Source: Cyanobium sp. PCC 7001
GTDB taxonomy: Bacteria > Cyanobacteriota > Cyanobacteriia > PCC-6307 > Cyanobiaceae
DNA: 64,000 nucleotides
NCBI RefSeq assembly: GCF_000155635.1
Contig: NZ_DS990556.1
Coordinates: 1,657,637-1,721,636 of the forward strand
Direction: 5' to 3'
Shown: positions 46,538-60,030 of the stretch, piece by piece
Layout: each line of letters begins with the position of its first letter
How positions within the stretch are numbered: position 1 is the stretch's first letter
Notes under the pieces: model-generated
The model's input: the letters and a program-made list of their open reading frames with translations, nothing else
What the model was told of the DNA's origin: nothing
Databases searched by the model: none
Position numbers and translations under genes: made by a program

Positions 46538-47872
46538 TTATCGGCGATCGCTGCTCTCCTCCGCCTTTTCGGCATCCTGGGCGGCTGGCGATGGCGGGGT
46601 TTCGGGCCGGCGCTCGATCTCCACCCTGGCGATGCGGGGGCCATCCATGGCCAGGATCCGGAATTGATAGCCCTTCCAGCGCACCCCTTCCCCGGCCGCC
46701 GGGATGTGCTGCAACCGCTCCAGCAGAAAGCCGGCCAGGGTGTGATGGCCGTCCGCCTCCGGCAGGGGGACGGGCAGATGGCGGTTCAGCTCGAAGATCT
46801 CGAGATCCCCCGCCACCGACCAGCAGCCTTCGGCCAGCTCGTGAAGCTCACCTTCTCCGTCCTGGGGCTCGTCGTCATCGCCCACGATCTCGCTGGTGAG
46901 GTCGGCCACCGTGACCAGCCCCTCGGTGCCGCCGTGCTCGTCCACCACCACCAGCAGGGGCTGGCCGCTGCGGATCAGGGGAAGCAGATCGGCCAGGGGG
47001 GTGCTCTCCTGCACCTGGGTCACCGGCAGCATGTAGGGCGCCAGGGGGGAATCGGCACTGAGCTGGCCCCGGGCGATCGGATCGGCGAGACGCCGCAGAT
47101 CCAGCAGGCCCTTCACGTCATCCAGCGAGGTGCCGATCACGGGGAAGCGGGCATGGGCGGTGTCGTGCACGGCCCGCATCAACTCCGCGAAGGTGACGTC
47201 CAGGGGCAGGGTGACCATGCCGGAGCGCGGCACCATCACCTCCCGCACCAGGGTGTCCCGCAGGGAGAACACGCCCTCGAGGATGTTGCGCTCATCCGGC
47301 ATCAGGCCGGTGACGCTGCCCGACTCGATCAGGGTTTCCAGCTCGCCGGCCGAGAGCATCGGCACGAGCTCGTCCCAGTTGCGCGGCAATCCCAGCAGAC
47401 GCAGCAGGATGGCCGAGAGCCGCTCGATCAGGCCGATCACCGGGGCCAGGCTCCGGCTCACGGCGGCCAGCAGGGGGGAGAGCCGCAACGCCGAAGCCTC
47501 GGGGTTGTGCAGCACCCAGGCCTTCGGCGCCAGACCACCGAGCAGGGTGGCCAGCAGCACCAGCACCAGAAACACGATCCCGTCCAGCCAGGACGCAGGC
47601 AGTGAGGAGCCCGCCCAGGCCTCGGTGAGCCGGTCCGCCACCGAGCGGCCAGCCCAGCCCAGCGCCACCAGCGCCAGCACGGCGCCCAGCTGGGTGGCCA
47701 CCAGCACCCGCCGCAGGCGGCGCTGCAGCAAGGACACGGCCCTGGCGCCGGGTTCGCCGCTCTCCAGCAGCTGACTCACGCGGCTGGGGCGGATCTTGAT
47801 CACCGCCAGTTCGCCGGCGGAGAAGAAGGCCAGTAGCAGAACTAGCACGAGCAACGCCAGAAGCAGGATCAC
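46538..47872 (-). CDS. CNNM/CorC-type transporter-associated protein with CBS pair
   Basis: A 444-residue hemolysin-family protein. The DUF21 membrane domain (LLAFFSAGELAVIKI, then about three further helices) is followed by a CBS pair (VREVMVPRSGMVTLPLDVTF and VDEHGGTEGLVTVADLTSEI) and a CorC_HlyC domain (HHTLAGFLLERLQHIP). The family is linked to magnesium or cobalt efflux. GTG 47872 is chosen because the membrane helix begins there and a GAGG lies upstream; the longer open frame runs into the GT gene. Confidence 0.88.
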   Translation of the reverse strand: MILLLALLVLVLLLAFFSAGELAVIKIRPSRVSQLLESGEPGARAVSLLQRRLRRVLVATQLGAVLALVALGWAGRSVADRLTEAWAGSSLPASWLDGIVFLVLVLLATLLGGLAPKAWVLHNPEASALRLSPLLAAVSRSLAPVIGLIERLSAILLRLLGLPRNWDELVPMLSAGELETLIESGSVTGLMPDERNILEGVFSLRDTLVREVMVPRSGMVTLPLDVTFAELMRAVHDTAHARFPVIGTSLDDVKGLLDLRRLADPIARGQLSADSPLAPYMLPVTQVQESTPLADLLPLIRSGQPLLVVVDEHGGTEGLVTVADLTSEIVGDDDEPQDGEGELHELAEGCWSVAGDLEIFELNRHLPVPLPEADGHHTLAGFLLERLQHIPAAGEGVRWKGYQFRILAMDGPRIARVEIERRPETPPSPAAQDAEKAEESSDRR

Positions 47873-47973
47873 GCTTGAGGCCTCATGGGGAGCCCAGGGA
47901 AATCCAACCGGCGGCAAGAACGGAGGGAGCAGGCGCGTGAAGAGTTCAGATCCAGGCTGGTCTCCTGAAGAGG

Positions 47974-49380
47974 CTAGGACGGATGTGACACGGTCACCGG
48001 CCCGGAGCGGTCCATCTGCACACCCGCGGCGGCATAGGCCTGCCATCCCGCGGCCATCAGGGCGGCGTTGAGGTCACGACAAGGGAGGCGGAGCATCGGC
48101 GGAAACCCTCCGATTTCGAGGAGCGCATCGCGCCTCCAACTGCACAGGTCCGGAGGGGTGCCGAGCACGGCGCCCATGGAGTCACCAGAAGAAGGGGGCA
48201 GGGAACGGTCGCCAGAAAGCTGGTCAGCATGGTGATGGGCACCTGTCACCATGGCGAAGCCGCGGCGGTGCGCCTCCACCATCCGCCGGAAAGCTCCGGG
48301 CGAGTAATGCAGCCAGGGAGCCAGAAAGCACACGATTTCACCCTTCGCCTCCACCAGCCTGGTATTGATCGCCAGGCCATTCAAGGCAACGGACTCAAGC
48401 CCGACGCCCTCGGGACTGGCCTGCGGGGGCGTCGCTTCTGGAAGGACAGAGACAGCGTTGTCCACCAGGAGAAGTTCATGGTCAAGGCCATCGGCATCCC
48501 CCGGCTGCAGGATCTCCAGAGGATCCCCCTCGAAGCCGGGGCATGGCAGTTCTGCAGCATCCCCAGGTAAAAGAACCAGAAATGAGATCGACAACCCTCT
48601 GGCCGCATGGCCCGGGGCGCTGCCGGTCGATGACGCCGTGGCGACGACCTCCTCCCAGAGCATGGGTTCATGGGGTGAACGGGGTGTCCAACGGGGCAGA
48701 GCCGCAGGGGGATCGCGTAGAAGTGCGCGGTAGTCCGTCTGGAATTCGCACGCCGGGTCAGCCTGCCGGTACTTGTCATACCGGCTCCTGCGGCGTGCGG
48801 CGGTCAGACCGCCGAGATGCTGGATTCTGAGGGTGGTCCGTCGCCAACGCGACCGAGGGATCTGGGCTGGAATCGGGAACAGATGGAGCCGACGGCCTTC
48901 AAGAATCTGACCCGGGGCATGATGAAACAGCCGGTACACCCACAGGCACCGCTCCTCGTAATGCTCAAGGTCGTTGCGTAGCGGGAACACCCGAAAGCCG
49001 TAGGCGGAATCGGCCATGGCCTGTGCCGTGATGAACTGGCGCAAGGCCTGACCCTCAGCAGGATCGAGACGCTCATCCGCATCCAGCCACAGGAGCCAGC
49101 GGGGCTTGAGAGCGCTCGCCGCCTCAAGCAACCGTGCCCGGTTGGCGGCGTCATCCCAGCCGTGGTACGTCTCACGGCGGGGATTCGCCAGCAGGATCCT
49201 CACCAGGCTGCTGGAAGCCAACAGGCTCGCGGTGTTGTCTGTGCTGCCATCATCCAGGGCCACCACCGCATCGCAGAACAGGGCCACAGACTCCAGAAAG
49301 CCAGGGAGATCCTGAGCCGCGTTGCGGGCCGGCACCAGGCAAGTGAGCAGAGGGGAAGCGACATCAGGCTCAGCGAGCAT
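47974..49380 (-). CDS. Two-part GT2-type glycosyltransferase
   Basis: A 468-residue protein from ATG 49380 (GTG 49398 is possible). The N-terminal GT-A domain has LVPARNAAQDLPGFL, AVVALDDGSTDNTASLL and WLLWLDADERLDPAEGQ, the nucleotide-sugar and metal motifs of GT2. The C-terminal part from residue ~280 looks like a second, reduced GT-A region (LLVDNAVSVLP, EIVCFLAPWLHYSPGAFRRM, WRRDALLEIGGFPPM) without an obvious DxD. The N-terminal domain resembles the last domain of the fusion protein at 50208-54515. The acceptor is unknown. Confidence 0.82.
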   Translation of the reverse strand: MLAEPDVASPLLTCLVPARNAAQDLPGFLESVALFCDAVVALDDGSTDNTASLLASSSLVRILLANPRRETYHGWDDAANRARLLEAASALKPRWLLWLDADERLDPAEGQALRQFITAQAMADSAYGFRVFPLRNDLEHYEERCLWVYRLFHHAPGQILEGRRLHLFPIPAQIPRSRWRRTTLRIQHLGGLTAARRRSRYDKYRQADPACEFQTDYRALLRDPPAALPRWTPRSPHEPMLWEEVVATASSTGSAPGHAARGLSISFLVLLPGDAAELPCPGFEGDPLEILQPGDADGLDHELLLVDNAVSVLPEATPPQASPEGVGLESVALNGLAINTRLVEAKGEIVCFLAPWLHYSPGAFRRMVEAHRRGFAMVTGAHHHADQLSGDRSLPPSSGDSMGAVLGTPPDLCSWRRDALLEIGGFPPMLRLPCRDLNAALMAAGWQAYAAAGVQMDRSGPVTVSHPS

Positions 49381-49394
49381 GCAACCACGCAGAA

Positions 49395-49441
49395 ACACGA
49401 GTACACTCTTGCCTACCGACGAGAGGGATGTGAACTCGTGT
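49395..49441. promoter_or_regulatory. Inverted repeat in the divergent promoter
   Basis: ACACGAGT (49395-49402) and ACTCGTGT (49434-49441) form a perfect 8-bp inverted repeat, with CAC/GTG matches just inside it. It lies between the divergent GT2 gene and the YdcF-like gene and could be an operator. The base composition changes at about this point. Confidence 0.45.
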
Positions 49442-49463
49442 CGGATGAATTTGCTCGGGCCGC

Positions 49464-50192
49464 GTGACTCCTATACAAGTGCCACCAGCGTCCACCATCT
49501 CAGGCTCGACCCACTCGATCACTGCTCACGCAATAGCGCCTTCTGAATCACTGTTCCAGAAAGACTCAAGCCTCACTCAAGAGCTTACCCAGTACATATT
49601 TCTCGAAGAAAGACTCAGCACTTTCGACGTAGCCATATGCCTTGGCTGTACGAGCTATAGCAAGCCCATTCGAAAAGGAATCCAGCTTTATCACTCGGGC
49701 CACTGCAGCAAGCTGTTGCTCACAGGCGGGGAGAACGCAAGACTCAAAGGAAACGAGGCGATGCTCATGGCAGGGCTTGCTTTGGCGGCGGGCATCCCCA
49801 GCAGGGATCTGATCGTTGACCCCTGTGCATCGAACACCCTGGAGAACTGCACGAACGCCATCGATCTTTTGCATCGCCACCAACACAGTCTGCCCCCAGC
49901 ATCGCGACGGAAGCCGAGGACAGCCCTTGTCGCCATTCACTTTCACAGCCGTCGCGCACTGGAGACATTTCGATGGGTCAGTGACGGTGAAGTGCTCCCT
50001 ACCGTGATTCCCTATCCGAGCTCCTATTATACCTATCGCGACTGGTTTCAGTCGCAGCGGGGATGTCGAGACGTACTGGGCGAAATCGCACGCATGGAGA
50101 CCTATCTTCCTCTCGGCTTTTCCCCTGAACTTGAATATCTAGTATCCAGGCTCCGCAGTTATTCCGTGCCAAGCACAAAAGCACAGGTGTGA
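49464..50192 (+). CDS. YdcF-like DUF218 protein
   Basis: A 242-residue protein with GTG start 49464. It has the DUF218 (YdcF/SanA/ElyC) pattern: FDVAICLGCTSYSKPIRKGI, then KLLLTGGENARLKGNEAMLM with the conserved TGG, and NTLENCTNAIDLL in the usual S/N-T-x-E-N position. SanA/ElyC members are tied to cell-envelope glycan synthesis; the activity is not defined. No membrane helix is seen, unlike ElyC. It is the first of three closely spaced genes in the AT-richer block; 15 bases separate it from the fusion gene. Confidence 0.8.
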   Translation: MTPIQVPPASTISGSTHSITAHAIAPSESLFQKDSSLTQELTQYIFLEERLSTFDVAICLGCTSYSKPIRKGIQLYHSGHCSKLLLTGGENARLKGNEAMLMAGLALAAGIPSRDLIVDPCASNTLENCTNAIDLLHRHQHSLPPASRRKPRTALVAIHFHSRRALETFRWVSDGEVLPTVIPYPSSYYTYRDWFQSQRGCRDVLGEIARMETYLPLGFSPELEYLVSRLRSYSVPSTKAQV

Positions 50193-50207
50193 CCCGAATT
50201 GACTCCA

Positions 50208-53200
50208 ATGGAACCCAGCCTTGAGGATAGAGCCAGGTCAGCAGGATCTTCTACTGCCGAGTATCTGCACTCTTCTCTCCAGGATGACTCCTCCTCGAAA
50301 TTTCATCTGATCGACGAAAATGGATTCAACCGATCACTGACCTTCGGCAACCTCGGCCAGCGTGCTTTTGATGTGCTGGCGACTTTACAGAAAGCAGGTC
50401 TTGGGCCAGGCTCAGTTTTAGTGATCCGAAGCTATAGCAGGGAAGACTTTATTTCATGTCTATGGGCCTGTCTACTGGGAAACATCACTGCCCTACCCAT
50501 TGAAGCAGGGATCGGGGAGGGACCCGCCCGTGAGGCACTGCATCGGAAATTGCTCGATGCACTCGTCGACAAAAAAGACTTGTATGTACTTGACTCAGTT
50601 GCCGCCAGAAGACTCACCGGGTGGAGACAACGTATCCATCCCAGCCATTGGATTCGACTGAACTCCAACGGGTGCGGCGCAGAGAATCAGCAGGCCAGAG
50701 TTCATGTTGCCCGTGCCTCCGATCCAAGGCTGCTCATCCTGACATCAGGAACGACAGGGCAGGCTTCTCTTGTAGAACTCTCCGACCGTGCCGTGTGTTC
50801 TCGGTGGTGGCCCTGTGGCCCTGCCATCAACAACACGACAAAGTTTCTGTCCTGGGCGCCGCTTGACCATGCCATGGGGCTTTCAGCCTGCAGTCCCAAT
50901 GCGTCCTGCAAGGTGGTTCTCCACACCATCGGTTTCCTGAAAGACCCTCTGCAGTGGCTGGAGTTAGCCAGCAACTACCGAGTCACACACACCACGATGA
51001 CGAGCTTCGGCATGAAGCTGATTCTGGATGCTCTTCGCCAGGCGCCGGTAGCTCGTCTCAACAGGATTAACCTCTCCATGATCGATAGCGTCGGCATTGG
51101 GGCGGAGCCACTCCAACCAGACGTGTTCAGAGACTTTGCAAGCGCTCTCACGGACTTTGGAGCCAACAGCGAGATTTATGTACAGAGTTACGGCCTCACA
51201 GAGTGTGGTCCAGTGATGAGTGGGCGTCTGAATGCGCATACCTTTGCAGTCAACAGCACGACTGGCTTCTGGTTTACGGACCTGAACCATGACCACGAAG
51301 TGAGAATGCAAACCAATAGCGACATTCAAGACGAAAAGAGACCCGATCTTGGAGAAATTCAAGTAAGGGGCCCCAGCATGGCCACTGGCTACCTCAACGC
51401 AGCCCAGGACAATGGACGGCTCCTCACGAGCGATGGATGGATACGCACAGGTGATGTCGGCAGAATCCAGGAAGGAAGGCTGCAACTGGCAGGGAGAATC
51501 AAGGAGACACTGATCCTCAATGCCGTCAAGTATCCCTGCCAGATGGTAGAGGATGTTGCGCTTAAGATTCCTGGCGTCGCTACAGCCATTGCTCTTCAGA
51601 CATCAAGCCGGATCGACAATAGTTCTTCAAGTAGCTATGAGATCATCATTACAGAAGCCGATCATGCTGAGCCATCCGACTCCCTGGCCGCAAAGATCGT
51701 TGACCAAGTAGGCAAAGAGTTTGGGGTGCGACCCAGCAATGTGATCGTAATCCCTGAGGCTTACATCCCCAGATCAAGCCTTGGGAAAGTAAGTCGATAT
51801 TCATTGGGACGGATGCTTGAATCCGAGGAATCGGGCATCAGCGATGTCATCAAAATCTACCCAGCTGCCTCACGAGTGGCCGGAACTCCGGAAGGCCTCA
51901 CTCCAGCTGAGCTCAAGATCCATGAGCTTTGGAGCAAAGTACTTGGCCACCAGAACTTTGGGATTGATGATAACTTCTTTGCAGCTGGTGGAGACTCTCT
52001 GCAAGCCGCACAGCTCGCGCTTGAAATAGAGAAGTGGTTGAGACGGTCGGTTTCTATAGGTGAGGTCTTCCGTCATTCATCAGTGCGGAGCCAATCATCC
52101 TCTATTGCAACAAGAATCAGGCCAGACTATCCAGGTCAGCAAGCATCTCCTAGCGATTCAGTTGGCACAGAGATTTTAATTAGACGACAAACCGATATGA
52201 TCAACGACTGGTCAGGGGTCCGGGATCAACCTGGAAGCCTGATTATCAGGGCAAGCCGGAGTGGTAGCAGGGGGAAATACCCGGGGGGGGCAATGAACTT
52301 GTTCTGGTGCTTCCAAGGAAATCAAGAGTTTCAGAGCTTGGCGGAAATGCTGCCAAAAAAGATCTGCCTTTTTGGGATGCGCTCTGGCCACTTGATCATG
52401 GAGGAAACGCAGCACAATATTCAGAGTCTTGCCACTATTTATGCTCGCGAGTTGAGGCGCCTTCAGCCTGACGGACGATTCATCCTTGGAGGCAACTGCC
52501 AAGGCGCCAGGATCATCCGCGCCGTCGCCTTAATCCTGGAGAGCCAAGGAAGACAGGTTGAAAGCCTAATCCTCATGGAAGACCGCAGGCTTGAACCCTA
52601 CAGCAACGGCAGGACTACCATCATCTTTGGAGAGGACAGCGAATTCAACCCATTGCAATCGCAGCCTGAGTCAGAAGTTAGCTCGAGATTACGCCAGAGC
52701 TACCCTTTGGGATACGACTTCTACGAGATTTCAGGAAGCCATGGCAGGTTTTTCAATCCTGAGCATGTGCGCTCACTCGCGGATACAGTTCTGCAATCAC
52801 TGGCCAACAACCTCAATGAGGAGAAATCTTCACTTTCTGTATCGAATGTTCCGTTCAGATCCTCCCGCGAGAGCCCTCCTCATTTGGCCTGCATTGTGAT
52901 CAGCGTAGGAAGATCACCACTACTTGTTGATGCTGTACGCTCACTCGTGCGGCAAAACCCCAAGCCTGAAGTGGTGGTAGTCAGCACGGGGGGACTAACC
53001 CCAGCAGCTGACCTTGCAACAGCAGGTTTGGCTGTGCCGGTGATCCACCGCCGCTGGCGCCGTTTTGTGGGCTGCGCCAGAAACATTGGGATCAAGAAAA
53101 CAACTGCTCCCTTCATTGCCTTTCTTGCAGATGATTGCATTGCAAGAAAGGGATGGGTTGCTGAACGCCTGCGTCTGCATCAGACTGGCGCGATAGCCGT

Positions 53201-54515
53201 TTCCTCTGCACTGGTTCCCAGTGACAGGAAGAATCTCTGGTCCTGGATCAGTCATCTACGCCTGTATAGCCGTCGCCTTCCAGGGATACCAGAACAGGAG
53301 GCTGTGCATTACGGAATCAGTTATGAGCGCAGTCTTTTTGATGAGTTTGGGTTGTTTCGTGAAGATCTACGCGTTGGCGAAGATAGTGAGTTTAACGCAC
53401 GCTTCCAACACCTTCATCAAATCACCTGGACACCCTCAGTCAAAACAGCGCATCGCCATCCAACTGGCTTCCTCGGTCTTCTGATCGACCAGTTCAAGCG
53501 CGGACGTCGGCGCGAATCGACGCGGGCAGCACTGCCTTGGTTCCTCCCCTCCATGGAGCTTCATGAGAAAGGGGTATGGGCAGCTCTCTCTGCGGAGCGC
53601 CAGCACAGCCAAAGACTGCTGCATCTTGCACGCTGGGGACTTGGTCCTCAGGAACGCTGGGTTCTTCGCTACGCCCCAAGCGTGCTGCCGGTCTGCAGCT
53701 TCGCGTTCTGGCTGGGATCCACAAGCCAGAGATGGTTGGGAGGCGGACCTTCAGAAACGAGGGCACAACAACAGGATGACCGCAACCCAATCATTCATGT
53801 TCTGTTGAGATTCCGCAATGAAGCTCGATATCTACCCACCTATCTAGAACATCTGGAAGGAAAAGTCGATGGGATCATCGCCTTGGATGATGGATCCACA
53901 GATGGTTCAACGGCCATTGTCCGTTCTCACCCTTTGGTCAAGGAGCTCATCGTCCATCCCGACCGTTCTGATCACGTATGGGATGAAGCAGGAGACCGTC
54001 GCCTTCTCATCACCACTGCGCTCCAGGAGAATGCCGATTGGCTGTTGGTTCTTGATGCTGATGAACGGCTTGAGGACAATTTCAGAGATCGAGCTATCCC
54101 CATCCTCCTCCAAGCTTTTGAATCAGGACAATGGGGGCTGGGTCTCAGGGTTCTTGATTGCTGGAATGCATGGAACATGGTGAGAACAGATGGAATCTGG
54201 GGAAGGAAGTCTTCGCCTCGTCTCTTCCTTGCCCGCCACGACCACGAATTTGACAATAAGCCACTCCATGGAGCCTGGGCTCCCTTGAATAGTCGCAGCA
54301 ACGGGATGTTCCCAGTGGTCGATGTGATCATCTACCACCTGAAGATGATTCGCGAATCCGATCGAATCAAACGGAGGCAACGGTACGAACAGCTCGATGC
54401 ACGGAGTGAGTATCAATCCGTTGGCTACTCCTACCTTACTGATCTCCATGACATTGAGCTGACGAGCTTTGAGGCCAACAGGGGCTACTCCAAGGCGTAC
54501 GCGCCATCATCCTGA
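50208..54515 (+). CDS. Fusion protein: adenylation - carrier - thioesterase-like - GT2 - GT2
   Basis: A 1435-residue multidomain protein from ATG 50208 (TTG 50199 is possible). (1) Residues ~15-540: AMP-forming adenylation domain with LTSGTTGQAS, YGLTECGP, SDGWIRTGDVG, and the catalytic Lys527 in PRSSLGKVSR; it looks like a fatty-acyl-AMP ligase or NRPS A domain. (2) ~565-635: carrier protein, phosphopantetheine Ser597 in FFAAGGDSLQAAQL. (3) ~690-870: alpha/beta-hydrolase thioesterase-like, elbow GGNCQGAR with Cys764 where Ser is usual, His845 in SGSHGRFF. (4) ~890-1110: GT2 domain, LADDCIARKGW and GEDSEFNARF. (5) ~1195-1435: second GT2, ALDDGSTDGSTAI and LLVLDADERLED. No condensation domain is present. 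Composition is clearly lower in GC than flanking genes. It may activate an acyl or aminoacyl group and build or modify a glycan; the product is unknown. Confidence 0.88.
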   Translation: MEPSLEDRARSAGSSTAEYLHSSLQDDSSSKFHLIDENGFNRSLTFGNLGQRAFDVLATLQKAGLGPGSVLVIRSYSREDFISCLWACLLGNITALPIEAGIGEGPAREALHRKLLDALVDKKDLYVLDSVAARRLTGWRQRIHPSHWIRLNSNGCGAENQQARVHVARASDPRLLILTSGTTGQASLVELSDRAVCSRWWPCGPAINNTTKFLSWAPLDHAMGLSACSPNASCKVVLHTIGFLKDPLQWLELASNYRVTHTTMTSFGMKLILDALRQAPVARLNRINLSMIDSVGIGAEPLQPDVFRDFASALTDFGANSEIYVQSYGLTECGPVMSGRLNAHTFAVNSTTGFWFTDLNHDHEVRMQTNSDIQDEKRPDLGEIQVRGPSMATGYLNAAQDNGRLLTSDGWIRTGDVGRIQEGRLQLAGRIKETLILNAVKYPCQMVEDVALKIPGVATAIALQTSSRIDNSSSSSYEIIITEADHAEPSDSLAAKIVDQVGKEFGVRPSNVIVIPEAYIPRSSLGKVSRYSLGRMLESEESGISDVIKIYPAASRVAGTPEGLTPAELKIHELWSKVLGHQNFGIDDNFFAAGGDSLQAAQLALEIEKWLRRSVSIGEVFRHSSVRSQSSSIATRIRPDYPGQQASPSDSVGTEILIRRQTDMINDWSGVRDQPGSLIIRASRSGSRGKYPGGAMNLFWCFQGNQEFQSLAEMLPKKICLFGMRSGHLIMEETQHNIQSLATIYARELRRLQPDGRFILGGNCQGARIIRAVALILESQGRQVESLILMEDRRLEPYSNGRTTIIFGEDSEFNPLQSQPESEVSSRLRQSYPLGYDFYEISGSHGRFFNPEHVRSLADTVLQSLANNLNEEKSSLSVSNVPFRSSRESPPHLACIVISVGRSPLLVDAVRSLVRQNPKPEVVVVSTGGLTPAADLATAGLAVPVIHRRWRRFVGCARNIGIKKTTAPFIAFLADDCIARKGWVAERLRLHQTGAIAVSSALVPSDRKNLWSWISHLRLYSRRLPGIPEQEAVHYGISYERSLFDEFGLFREDLRVGEDSEFNARFQHLHQITWTPSVKTAHRHPTGFLGLLIDQFKRGRRRESTRAALPWFLPSMELHEKGVWAALSAERQHSQRLLHLARWGLGPQERWVLRYAPSVLPVCSFAFWLGSTSQRWLGGGPSETRAQQQDDRNPIIHVLLRFRNEARYLPTYLEHLEGKVDGIIALDDGSTDGSTAIVRSHPLVKELIVHPDRSDHVWDEAGDRRLLITTALQENADWLLVLDADERLEDNFRDRAIPILLQAFESGQWGLGLRVLDCWNAWNMVRTDGIWGRKSSPRLFLARHDHEFDNKPLHGAWAPLNSRSNGMFPVVDVIIYHLKMIRESDRIKRRQRYEQLDARSEYQSVGYSYLTDLHDIELTSFEANRGYSKAYAPSS

Positions 54516-54527
54516 AGCCCCAGGAAC

Positions 54528-55496
54528 ATGCCATCGGAGCCAGCTCCTACGATTGACCTGATTCGGTTCGACGGCTGTGAAGCCGAGCGTCAGCGCGTGC
54601 TGGGCTGGTTTACCGGGCAGCGGGATGAATTCACGACTTCGGGGTCGCGGTCTGTATTGTTGAAGATGAATGATCAGTACAGCCTGAAGATCAAAGGCTG
54701 CGGGCGTGCTCCTGAGTTCACCATCACGCCAGGGGTGTATCACGCCACTGGTCCAGCAGCTTTCCGATTTGACTATGAGGGCGGCAGGATGGACGATATC
54801 GCCATCGGTCATGACGCCGCCCTCTCGGGCGGCATGAGCTACCAGCAGGCTTCAGTGGAGTATGGAGCCTCCCGGCATCTTGCTTCCCTCGGCTTCAGCG
54901 TGGCTCCCTGTATCGGTTGGGGTGTGATCAACCATGGCCTTGCAGCAGATCCAAGTTTCTTTGCCGTGATCCGGTGGGAGCACGGATTGATCAGGCCGGA
55001 ACGCTCCACGCCAGAGCCTTTGCGACTGTCACTCCTGCATTCCAGCGCGGAGACCGTCGTGGAGGTGCATCTGAAGCATCACGTTGCCAGTTACTTTTCC
55101 CTGGCCAAGCATCCCGATCAACACATCCATCTGCTGTATGACCTTCACCCAACACGGCTGATCTCTCCACTGACTGACTCACCAATCTCAGCCACGTTGA
55201 CCATGCTTTACAATTTGCGCGTGCAATGGTGGGCTCTGAAGGGGTTTTGCCTCTTGGGCACAGAAGAGCAGCGCCAAAGGTTTGCCGACCACGTGTTTCG
55301 TGCCGTAGTACCCGATGCCACTGATGCAGAGTGCCGGCATCTTGAAACCAGTGTCATCATTCCCATGCTTTGTCGCTCTCCAATCCAAGGCTATCGGAAT
55401 CACATGTTGCTGCTACAAGGCAACAGAATCAGTGCCACACTCTTGGAGAGATTCAGTCAAACTCTGCATCATCTCTCAAAGCACGAGGATAGATAG
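54528..55496 (+). CDS. Hypothetical protein with weak SelO-like resemblance
   Basis: A 322-residue soluble protein starting 12 bases after the fusion gene. I do not recognise it with certainty. The segment YSLKIKGCGRAPEF, followed later by GGMSYQQASVEYGASRHLAS and LGFSVAPCIGW, resembles in order and wording the QLKGAGRTPY...SIREFLxSEAMxxLGIPT region of SelO pseudokinase/AMPylase proteins, but the family is otherwise longer and its other motifs are not evident. Alternatives are an aminoglycoside-kinase or HipA-like fold, or a novel family. Base composition is like the fusion gene. It probably works with that gene. Confidence 0.6.
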   Translation: MPSEPAPTIDLIRFDGCEAERQRVLGWFTGQRDEFTTSGSRSVLLKMNDQYSLKIKGCGRAPEFTITPGVYHATGPAAFRFDYEGGRMDDIAIGHDAALSGGMSYQQASVEYGASRHLASLGFSVAPCIGWGVINHGLAADPSFFAVIRWEHGLIRPERSTPEPLRLSLLHSSAETVVEVHLKHHVASYFSLAKHPDQHIHLLYDLHPTRLISPLTDSPISATLTMLYNLRVQWWALKGFCLLGTEEQRQRFADHVFRAVVPDATDAECRHLETSVIIPMLCRSPIQGYRNHMLLLQGNRISATLLERFSQTLHHLSKHEDR

Positions 55497-55545
55497 TCCA
55501 AGTGGGCTGGCCGTGCGGGGGTTGGCTGACCGTATTCGCTTAGAG

Positions 55546-55618
55546 TGGGGGTCGCGAGGATCGAACTCGCCTCCGGCGGATTATGAGCCCGCTGCATTCA
55601 CCAGATTGCTAGACCCCC
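55546..55618 (-). tRNA. tRNA with CAU anticodon (probably tRNA-Met)
   Basis: A 73-base cloverleaf. The acceptor stem pairs GGGGGTC with GACCCCC. The anticodon loop reads CTCATAA (anticodon CAT), and the T arm is GCGAGTTCGATCCTCGC. CCA is not encoded. The CAU anticodon is shared by elongator Met, initiator Met and Ile2 tRNAs; the features here fit elongator Met best. It borders the right end of the AT-richer block. Confidence 0.9.
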
Positions 55619-55690
55619 GGGATGCCGGGTGATCAGGCAGAGCCCTGTCAACCGGCCAGACACCAGCGTGTCATGGCCGGCGCAGGGAGA

Positions 55691-56287
55691 TCACCACAGC
55701 CCGCGGACCGGTGGCGACCAGGTGGGACCAGGATCCTCCCAGGCCACCGGCGCGGGCTGCGGGTTGCCGAGATTGCCGGAGAAACCGCTGGACACATCCG
55801 CGGTGCGCAAGGGCATCGGATCGCTCTGCTGGTCGTTCAGGGCGCGGAACGTGTTCTCGATCGCCGTGCCATCCCAGACGATGGCCTGATCGGAGAAACC
55901 GAGCCCCATCACCCGGGTGCCGTCACCGCCGCCCATCGCAATGCCGAACAGTTCGGTGATCTGGTTGGTGAGGCTCACCCCACGGGCATAGGGGGCCGTC
56001 CAGCCGTAGTACCGGCGCTCCACCAGATCGGGGATGGTCTGCACGGCATTGCAGCGGGTGACCTCCACCGGCGCCGGTGGGGTTCCCCCGAGGGAGGAAT
56101 CGGAGGGAGGGGCCTCGAGCGTGGTGGTGCAGACCACAGGACCGGCCTGGGCGGGCTGGTGGGCAGCCAGTCCGAGCAGGGTGAGCGGTGCCACCAGGAG
56201 CGGAAGGCGCCAAAGGAGCGATCGACCGGCAGCCCCGGCAGCCGGCTGCCGGCAAGCCTTGGGAAGCAGGCCCCGAGACAACGGCAT
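55691..56287 (-). CDS. Secreted protein of unknown function
   Basis: A 198-residue protein from ATG 56287; ATG 56335 or TTG 56359 would lengthen it. A signal peptide (WRLPLLVAPLTLLGLAAHQP, cut near QAG) precedes a mature domain of ~150 residues with two Cys (VVCTTTLEAPP, VEVTRCNAVQTIPDLVERRY). The Gly-rich region FGIAMGGGDGTRVMGLGFSD suggests a compact beta fold. It fits a cyanobacterial conserved type, sometimes labelled occludin/ELL-like, with no known role. Confidence 0.65.
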   Translation of the reverse strand: MPLSRGLLPKACRQPAAGAAGRSLLWRLPLLVAPLTLLGLAAHQPAQAGPVVCTTTLEAPPSDSSLGGTPPAPVEVTRCNAVQTIPDLVERRYYGWTAPYARGVSLTNQITELFGIAMGGGDGTRVMGLGFSDQAIVWDGTAIENTFRALNDQQSDPMPLRTADVSSGFSGNLGNPQPAPVAWEDPGPTWSPPVRGLW

Positions 56288-56406
56288 GCGCAGGGGCCAC
56301 TGCGCCAGTACTTGCGTCACAGCCAACGCCAACATCCTGAGTAGGCGCAAACTAGTCAAGATCGGCAGGTTCGGCCACCCTTGCCCGCCCCAGCGCGTCC
56401 ACCTTC

Positions 56407-57006
56407 ATGTCCGTCTCCATCCCCTCCGTCGTGCTGCCCACAGCCACGGCGGCCATGCGCCAGAACCTGCTGGTGCAGCTGGCGAGCCGGGCCTACCGGC
56501 ACGGCCGCTTCACCCTGGCCTCGGGCCGCAGCAGCGACCACTACGTGAACTGCAAGCCTGTGAGCCTGAGCGGCGCCGGGCTGGCCCTGCTGGGGGCCCT
56601 GCTGCTGGAGCAGGTGGAGCCCGAGGCCGCGGCCGTGGCCGGCCTCACCCTGGGCGCCGATCCCCTGGTGAGCGCCGTGGCGATGCGGGCGGCCCTGGAT
56701 GGCCGCGGGCTCGACGCCCTGATCGTGCGCAAGGAGGCGAAGGGGCATGGCACCGGCGCCTGGCTCGAGGGCCCGCTGCCCGGGAGCGGCGAGCGGATCA
56801 CGGTGCTCGAGGACGTGGTGACCACCGGCGGATCGTCCCTGAAGGCCGTGGCCCAGCTGCGGGAGGCCGGCTATCGGGTGGAGCGGGTGGTGGCGATCGT
56901 GGACCGCCAGGAAGGGGGGCTGGAGGCGATGACCGCCGCCGGGCTTGAGTTGCGCAGCCTCTTCCTGCTGGAGGAGGTGGCGGCAACGGCCGCGGAGCTG
57001 CGCTAG
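56407..57006 (+). CDS. pyrE: Orotate phosphoribosyltransferase
   Basis: Makes OMP from orotate and PRPP in pyrimidine synthesis. The protein has 199 residues. Motifs: [59 protein letters not shown] and the PRPP loop [19 protein letters not shown] 56407 is preceded by a sensible leader. The ygfZ-like gene follows on the same strand after 41 bases. Confidence 0.96.
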
Positions 57007-59604: not shown

Positions 59605-59689
59605 GTGAACACGTTGATCCTCCTGTCCCCAGGCGGATGCAGTTGGACCCATCTCAGGCAACGGGGAGGTGGGCGCTGTGGAGATCACC

Positions 59690-59946: not shown

Positions 59947-60030
59947 TTGATGACACCCTGCTGCAGAAAGCCTGCTGCTGACAGCCGTGGCAGACCTGAC
60001 CAGGCTGAAGGCAGCGCTCGGACGGCAGGA

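Follow-up and report, generated by a model that had tools for sequence, protein, structure and literature searches.

The thioesterase (TE) domain of Pks13 is described as both a hydrolase and an acyltransferase that loads mycolate onto trehalose (PMC11649247). In TE domains the lid is described as lying between the two strands that follow the nucleophile (PMC11298585), and according to the work on ObiF a thioester acyl-enzyme reacts with a hydroxyl more readily than an ester does (PMC6668435). We analyzed a stretch of 64,000 nucleotides from Cyanobium sp. PCC 7001 (contig NZ_DS990556.1, positions 1,657,637 to 1,721,636; hereafter the window), in which a single open reading frame (ORF), here called the fusion, joins an adenylation (A) domain, a carrier domain (T), a TE with a Cys nucleophile and two family 2 glycosyltransferase (GT2) domains. 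The TE of the fusion falls in a distinct clade with unusually short spacing between nucleophile and His. We tentatively favor, with a probability of roughly 0.4, acyl transfer to a sugar or glycan, in which the fusion would be a cytosolic, single-chain acyl-glycan synthase gained by horizontal transfer.

The sequence-only reading of this locus had placed an A domain, a carrier, a TE and two GT2 domains in one 1435-residue frame, and this was borne out. Pfam matched five domain types in the fusion, from AMP-binding to Glyco_tranf_2_4, all above their cut-offs, and the frame runs for 1438 aa from the TTG at 50199 or 1435 aa from the ATG at 50208 (Table 1). It is uninterrupted by stops in a genome of 2.83 Mb on two contigs (99.99% complete), while 200 base shuffles of the fusion DNA gave a longest stop-free run of 260 codons, so a frameshift-joined assembly artefact or a chance ORF is unlikely. 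The A domain matched models of the fatty acyl-AMP ligase (FAAL) type best and is nearer to FAAL/McyG-type domains than to amino-acid domains; McyG (4r0m) aligned with fusion residues 48-631 at E 2.5e-48. FAAL/McyG-type domains take acids without an alpha-amino group. The best FAAL model scored 150.8 bits against a curated NCBIfam cut-off of 600. The FAAL matches and the McyG alignment do not support a typical amino-acid nonribosomal peptide synthetase (NRPS) module, and no PF00668 condensation (C) domain was matched in the fusion at E 0.1, which sets it apart from a type I NRPS module. The active-site codons of the TE are those of Cys767 (52497-52499) and His848 (52740-52742), and the domain scored 37.3 bits against PF00975 (cut-off 26.4), a threshold below which some relatives in its clade fall. 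The fusion and the DUF218 protein encoded upstream of it are both probably cytosolic, since hydropathy in neither of them peaks as a membrane helix typically would (highest means over 19 residues 1.51 and 1.48, respectively).

Table 1. Features of the fusion locus, in window coordinates
Feature	Coordinates	Strand	Basis
Fusion ORF, A - carrier - Cys-TE (predicted lidless) - GT2 - GT2, 1438 aa	50199..54515	+	Pfam, residues
FAAL/McyG-like adenylation domain, ~residues 37-543, A10 Lys530	50307..51827	+	AMP-binding, residues 37-399, above Pfam cut-off
Carrier domain, residues 573-631, Ser600	51915..52091	+	PF00550, 42.7 bits (cut-off 20.8)
Cys thioesterase, predicted lidless, ~residues 661-876	52179..52826	+	Pfam Thioesterase at 709-793, alignment, model, tree
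GT2 domain 1 (GT2-1), Pfam stretch residues 899-1024	52893..53270	+	Glycos_transf_2 in 2 stretches, best 899-1024
GT2 domain 2 (GT2-2), ~residues 1195-1438	53781..54512	+	PF13704, 39.4 bits (cut-off 27.5); Glyco_tranf_2_4 at 1206-1290
DUF218 protein, 242 aa, first gene of presumed operon	49464..50192	+	PF02698, 65.5 bits (cut-off 27.6); no membrane segment seen by hydropathy
Orphan protein, 322 aa, third gene of presumed operon	54528..55496	+	No family at thresholds used
Islet between corC-like gene and tRNA-Met, ends approximate	47883..55545		Relatives' corC-pyrE distances, GC content
tRNA-Met (CAT), 3' end facing islet	55545..55618	-	Islet boundary
GT2 protein, 474 aa, GC 0.65	47974..49398	-	PF00535 above cut-off

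A three-row alignment with conserved motifs was built on the best TE relatives, in genomes G428 (39% over the TE query) and G140 (34% over residues 385-865). Scanning genome_contigs with it returned 12 loci (L097-L108), which by tree labels come from Cyanobacteriota, Pseudomonadota, Bacteroidota and Chlorobiota; L097 and L105 are the same stretches as the G428 and G140 relatives (L095 and L096), and each was counted once. Thirteen plasmid records had a TE match, of which five with at least 74% coverage were used and eight partial ones left out. The five plasmid members, including the divergent L112 and L113, bring the clade to 18 with the window. As controls we took one ordinary cyanobacterial NRPS TE, found with the same query, from each of 20 of 26 other genomes (six were unused). 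The 18 clade TEs and 20 ordinary TEs were split in the tree with 100/100 support, with L112, L105 and L106 on long branches and unsure of placement. All rows of a 13-row alignment (window TE and L097-L108) share the same active-site residues (Cys, Gln, His) and the GMRS-H motif; the Asn before the active-site Cys is Ile in L106, and the active-site Gln is Lys in the divergent L112. We define the clade by the GMRS-H and GxCQ motifs, the short Cys-His spacing and the tree position, all of which the window TE shows. Nucleophile and His are 77-84 residues apart in 16 members (81 in the window TE) and 104 in L105, making 17 of 18 readable, versus 151-189 in the controls (19 of 20 readable). The lid is missing from the clade, as judged by the short spacing in those 17 members together with the predicted structure of the window TE: in the AlphaFold2 model (13 rows; predicted local distance difference test score, pLDDT, 86.2) 11 residues connect the two strands that follow the nucleophile.

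The TE domains of this clade are found in varied protein contexts. By Pfam, the in-chain partners among the 17 other members comprise one glycosyltransferase (GT), three sulfotransferases (L099, L102, L111) and two Mur ligases. The GT is in L097, which has AMP-binding, TPR and Gly_transf_sug among the matches listed and is 35% identical to window residues 568-869 (carrier-TE). The remaining layouts are C-A-T-TE-TPR (L098, L101), C-T-TE-sulfotransferase-TPR (L099), TE-TPR (L100), A-T-sulfotransferase-TE with the TE below cut-off (L102), C-A-T-TE (L103, L109), methyltransferase-T-TE, with the gene seemingly broken in its record (L104), C-A-T with the TE seen by alignment only (L105), Mur ligase-A-T-TE (L106, L110), a TE with an Ig-like domain, both below cut-off (L107), T-TE at a contig end (L108), TE-sulfotransferase-TPR in the part scanned (L111) and A-T-TE (L112); L113 gave no Pfam match. 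Sulfotransferase-like stretches in L097 and L104 were recognized by eye only. Xenococcus sp. PCC 7305 carries three lidless Cys-TE proteins with TPR tails (L098, L099, L101) on separate scaffolds, and L099 adjoins several small genes that by eye look sulfotransferase- and glycosyltransferase-like. The Moorena bouillonii member (L100, 8487-11833) has the lidless TE and TPR tail without A and carrier domains, and next to this TE is a GT4-type gene that shares 58% identity with a neighbor of the L099 TE in Xenococcus.

A DUF218 gene lies directly upstream of the TE gene in the window (6 bases), in L106 (0 bases) and in L110 (8-base overlap), as found by tblastn with the window protein over L095-L113 and by the Pfam count, a test that a very divergent DUF218 could escape. 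The three genomes or records concerned hold few DUF218 matches (3, 3 and 1 in total); at about one gene per kb, we estimate that chance would place one next to the TE gene at about one to three of every thousand loci, and it is therefore unlikely that the three adjacencies are accidental. The E. coli DUF218 proteins SanA and ElyC are described as influencing the synthesis of peptidoglycan and enterobacterial common antigen, and the cytosolic YdcF as binding S-adenosylmethionine (PMC12176290). The window DUF218 protein, which lacks a membrane segment, resembles the cytosolic kind such as YdcF.

Three observations lean toward acyl transfer to a sugar: the combination in L097 of AMP-binding, carrier, same-clade TE and a GT of another family in one chain; the presence of the sugar-acylating Pks13 TE among the nearest profiles and folds of the lidless clade; and the recurrence of the DUF218 partner. 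The greater reactivity of a thioester acyl-enzyme, compared with an ester, toward a hydroxyl also enters into our preference for such transfer in an open active site. What the sequence itself shows is the domains and their residues, the arrangement of the genes, the insertion of the islet, the place of the TE in its clade and the short Cys-His spacing, with the absence of a lid coming from a predicted model; from these we infer each chemical step, the substrate, the acceptor and TE transfer rather than hydrolysis. The A domain would activate a carboxylic acid as the acyl-AMP with no need for an alpha-amino group, candidates being fatty, aryl, hydroxy or keto acids. The acyl group would then be loaded onto the pantetheine of carrier Ser600 and pass to Cys767 of the TE, in whose open active site a sugar linked to a nucleotide or lipid could attack, through a hydroxyl or amine, in place of water. 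The acceptor sugar may be built or extended by GT2-2, perhaps also by GT2-1, and the DUF218 protein may act on a partner in the same pathway. More broadly, and more doubtfully, the lidless Cys-TE clade may be an undescribed family of carrier-to-glycan acyltransferases. NRPS- and FAAL-type modules in at least four phyla would use it to attach acyl, aminoacyl or peptidyl groups to sugars, UDP-sugars or glycans of the envelope, and its partners would be DUF218, Mur ligases, sulfotransferases and GTs; the window protein would then be the version with acid activation, transfer and glycan assembly in one chain. If true, nonribosomal acid activation would be linked directly to glycan assembly, a single polypeptide would be available for making acylated glycans, the recurrent fusions to GT, sulfotransferase and Mur ligase domains would be explained, and DUF218 proteins would gain a biochemical context. 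Even with a non-sugar acceptor, the lidless clade would be a clean case for testing the role of the lid.

Comparison of the TE model with solved structures by VIA-align, which considers only chains ranked high by Foldseek and may miss fold families outside these, placed the Pks13 TE on top (Z 18.0, 177 aligned residues, root-mean-square deviation 3.0), followed by the fengycin TE (17.6) and NocB TE (17.2). Of 13 clade members, 10 matched the NCBIfam model of Pks13 and seven that of EntF, with no third family, which adds modest weight for sugar transfer. The fusion is not itself a Pks13, as its TE scores far under the equivalog cut-off of that model (2100 bits) and no ketosynthase (KS) or acyltransferase (AT) domain appeared in the Pfam scan of the fusion.

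A number of results weigh against acyl transfer to a sugar. The Z scores of the Pks13, fengycin and NocB TEs differ by less than one unit, so a likeness in fold does not by itself point to sugar transfer, and by Foldseek E-value 7crn, a bifunctional epimerizing and cyclizing TE, ranks first, above Pks13. The window TE scored 18.9 bits (E 2e-4) against the Pks13 NCBIfam model, and 203 model residues span 277 of Pks13, whose TE is thus no precedent for a lidless one. A Cys nucleophile is also present in eight of the 20 ordinary control TEs; it is therefore not the mark of the clade, and the idea of the Cys thioesterase as the unusual part was dropped. In L111 a Tyr stands where the active-site His is expected, leaving the spacing unreadable, and L103, L105 and L109 are C-A-T(-TE) chains without a GT. 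The sequence-only reading had each domain keeping its key residues, which holds for the A-domain Lys530, carrier Ser600 and, in GT2-2, DDGSTD (from 1230) and DADE (from 1286), while other positions have changed. The A3 'PKG' of McyG is 'ASL' in the fusion and the A8 'NG' is 'NA'. GT2 enzymes usually carry an Asp where GT2-1 has VVSTGG; FLADDC (from 975) is kept there, and the excised domain still matches PF00535 with 46.7 bits. Furthermore, of the fixed set of neighbors whose recurrence that reading had named as support, DUF218 alone recurs, at three of the 17 loci with a readable upstream side (all but L108). The three DUF218 loci do not form one clade, since the window, L105 and L110 group together (98/92) and L106 lies elsewhere. 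The exact five-domain layout is a single case in the samples searched.

Nor was an enrichment of GTs among genes near the clade TEs shown. Pfam assigned Glycos_transf_1 to 3 of 90 neighbor ORFs versus 3 of 96 control ORFs, and GT2, present in two control ORFs, was outside the 25 commonest families listed for the test ORFs, the comparison covering the 25 commonest families of each set. Control ORFs also held WecG-type GT (2) and PMT_2 (2). Families found among those 25 in the test set only were Sulfotransfer_2 (3), Sulfotransfer_3 (2), PS_pyruv_trans (2) and DUF218 (2 of the 90 ORFs, from 14 loci). Handling differed somewhat between the two sets: 99 scripted test ORFs became 90 after edits in L107 and L109-L111, where shadow ORFs were removed and annotated genes added, while the 96 control ORFs were unedited; L108, L112 and L113 were outside the test set and control locus L124 gave no ORF. 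Using E. coli K-12 colanic-acid and O16 proteins as seeds, a GT was found at 3 of 14 test versus 2 of 20 control loci in a first round (p 0.33) and at 4 of 14 versus 2 of 20 in a second (Fisher p 0.17), and other glycan genes at 1 of 14 versus 4 of 20. The earlier proposal that the activated group is transferred to a glycan built by the GT domains is partly supported, by the L097 fusion, the lidless TE near Pks13 and DUF218, with the transfer itself a step we infer.

The fusion was absent from all 12 same-genus genomes. In overlapping draws of 299 further genomes from the family and 385 from the phylum, with two candidates per genome scored, none of the matches listed spans both the A-T-TE and the GT parts; no place in 72,556 plasmid records covered 80% of the fusion query, and the full-length query found nothing in genome_contigs. 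The GT tail had no relative at E 1e-10 in the 385 other cyanobacterial genomes (up to three candidates per genome scored), its only relative at that threshold in the phylum sample being the 474-aa GT2 protein of the window itself, and its plasmid matches cover at most 40%. A literature search, by titles and the starts of abstracts, found no description of an A-carrier-TE-GT2-GT2 architecture or of this TE group. PADLOC matched none of the four proteins scanned, and a defence system was set aside as a candidate; so was a viral origin, as viral contigs held no relative of the TE and phage GT matches cover at most 38%.

Alternatively, the A-T-TE part may be a small-molecule synthase that releases an acid-derived product, such as a dimer or lactone, which the GT domains then glycosylate. 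Furanone and quinone synthetases share this A-T-TE layout, which lacks a condensation domain, and the nearest solved relatives of the A domain, McyG and 6ulw, fit this explanation. TEs with a Cys nucleophile are able to free their product through an internal attack, as described for ObiF (PMC6668435) and SulM (PMC11298585). However, by the same accounts the TEs of these two enzymes have 138 residues between Cys and His and so are not lidless, and Mur ligase and sulfotransferase domains are also found among the partners of the lidless clade. On balance we regard glycosylation of a released small molecule as somewhat unlikely.

The genomic setting of the fusion bears on a further possibility. 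The gaps between the DUF218 gene and the fusion (6 or 15 bases, depending on the fusion start) and between the fusion and the orphan gene (12 bases) are so short as to suggest one three-gene operon with the fusion in the middle; promoter and terminator scans gave results below shuffle means. The orphan protein has no relative in the 12 same-genus genomes and none in the plasmids; in 243 other cyanobacterial genomes it had one 46-residue match (E 0.0045), and it gave one sub-threshold chance family match and a single-sequence model with pLDDT 32.5. The GC content of the three genes is 0.53-0.56, versus 0.70 in window positions 1-46 kb and 0.73 in 57-64 kb, and they lie in an islet of about 7.7 kb. 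In the closest relative (G072, locus L136; corC 93% identical) only 102 bases separate the counterparts of window positions 47882 and 55546. The corC and pyrE matches are 8.4 kb apart here and 0.76-1.0 kb apart in 8 of the 10 relatives with both on one contig; of the 12, G212 had no pyrE match and G168 has the two genes on separate contigs. The same tRNA-Met is present in L136, L138, L139 and L140. Since the interval is short in relatives and G072 has the same tRNA-Met without the islet, the corC-tRNA-Met-pyrE interval is an insertion site in the genus and the operon is strain-specific in the sample examined. No repeat of the tRNA-Met 3' end or attachment repeat was found from 45 kb to the islet end. 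The interval corresponds to window 46538-57006, and it holds other genes in G121 (22.4 kb, including some that look cytochrome bd-like by eye) and G192 (3.0 kb).

Another possibility is that the fusion is a chance product on a strain-specific islet, with enzymes that are functionally separate or decaying and at least one domain inactive. The islet is absent from relatives, the fusion was met in one genome only, its GT2-1, A3 and A8 motifs are changed, and no homologue is near enough for a selection test. Yet 1438 codons remain open, the key residues of the A10 motif (Lys), the carrier (Ser) and the TE (Cys, His) are intact, as are the motifs of GT2-2, and the gene is tightly spaced with DUF218, a partner at two other loci, so we consider chance or decay unlikely. 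Least likely of all is a plain hydrolase, in which the TE merely hydrolyzes the thioester and lacks a lid because of the type of substrate it takes: the TEs of L103, L105 and L109 do end ordinary C-A-T modules and the fold is that of a normal alpha/beta-hydrolase TE with nucleophile and His (Z up to 18.0 to solved TEs), but this reading leaves unexplained why special motifs persist across four phyla and why fusions to transferases and ligases recur.

Several other features of the window and genome were recorded. The N-terminal domain of the 474-aa GT2 protein is a paralogue of fusion GT2-2 (30% identity over 229 columns, E 4e-23); its C-terminal half looks by eye like a degenerate second GT2, with no similarity to GT2-1 by BLAST. 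The end of its gene overlaps the 5' part of the listed corC ORF, and the corC matches of most relatives start only at residue 52-58, so the true corC start may be further in than listed. The genome has one PPTase-family match that could arm the carrier, which counts in favor of the proposed acyl transfer. It also encodes, at L143 (1757-5359, minus strand), a 1201-aa AMP-binding - carrier - NAD_binding_4 protein whose layout we take to resemble that of carboxylic acid reductases. A Glutamine-II riboswitch (RF01704, 43.9 bits, gathering score 33) lies at window 59609-59673 on the plus strand; the ORF downstream of it (733 aa, start at 59947) looks patatin-like by eye.

How the fusion relates to known systems can be stated part by part. 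For its A-carrier portion, the nearest solved relatives are the A-carrier structure of McyG (4r0m) and 6ulw, presumably a keto-acid-selecting synthetase, from which it differs in the altered A3 and A8 motifs and in continuing with a TE and two GT2 domains. Pks13, whose FAAL partner we take to be FadD32, differs from the fusion in having KS and AT domains, in lacking a GT domain and in 74 extra residues across the aligned part of the TE. What the two have in common is the carrier and TE, which in Pks13 transfer an acyl chain to a sugar, as described (PMC11649247). SulM (Z 15.3) and ObiF share a Cys nucleophile in the TE fold, while their reported products are beta-lactam or beta-lactone rings and their Cys-His spacing is 138 residues, compared with 81 in the fusion (PMC11298585, PMC6668435). 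Among clade members, the Mur ligase proteins of Paracoccus aminophilus plasmid pAMI4 (L110) and a Chlorobiaceae metagenome-assembled genome (L106) have the same A-carrier-lidless Cys-TE core with DUF218 directly upstream, and carry an N-terminal Mur ligase in place of the C-terminal GT2 domains. Finally, the 2255-aa protein of Synechococcales cyanobacterium S06 (L097) shares with the fusion AMP-binding, carrier, same-clade TE and a GT in one chain, and differs in its GT family, its TPR repeats, its Ig-like and sulfotransferase-like parts (by eye) and a locus with no DUF218 match.

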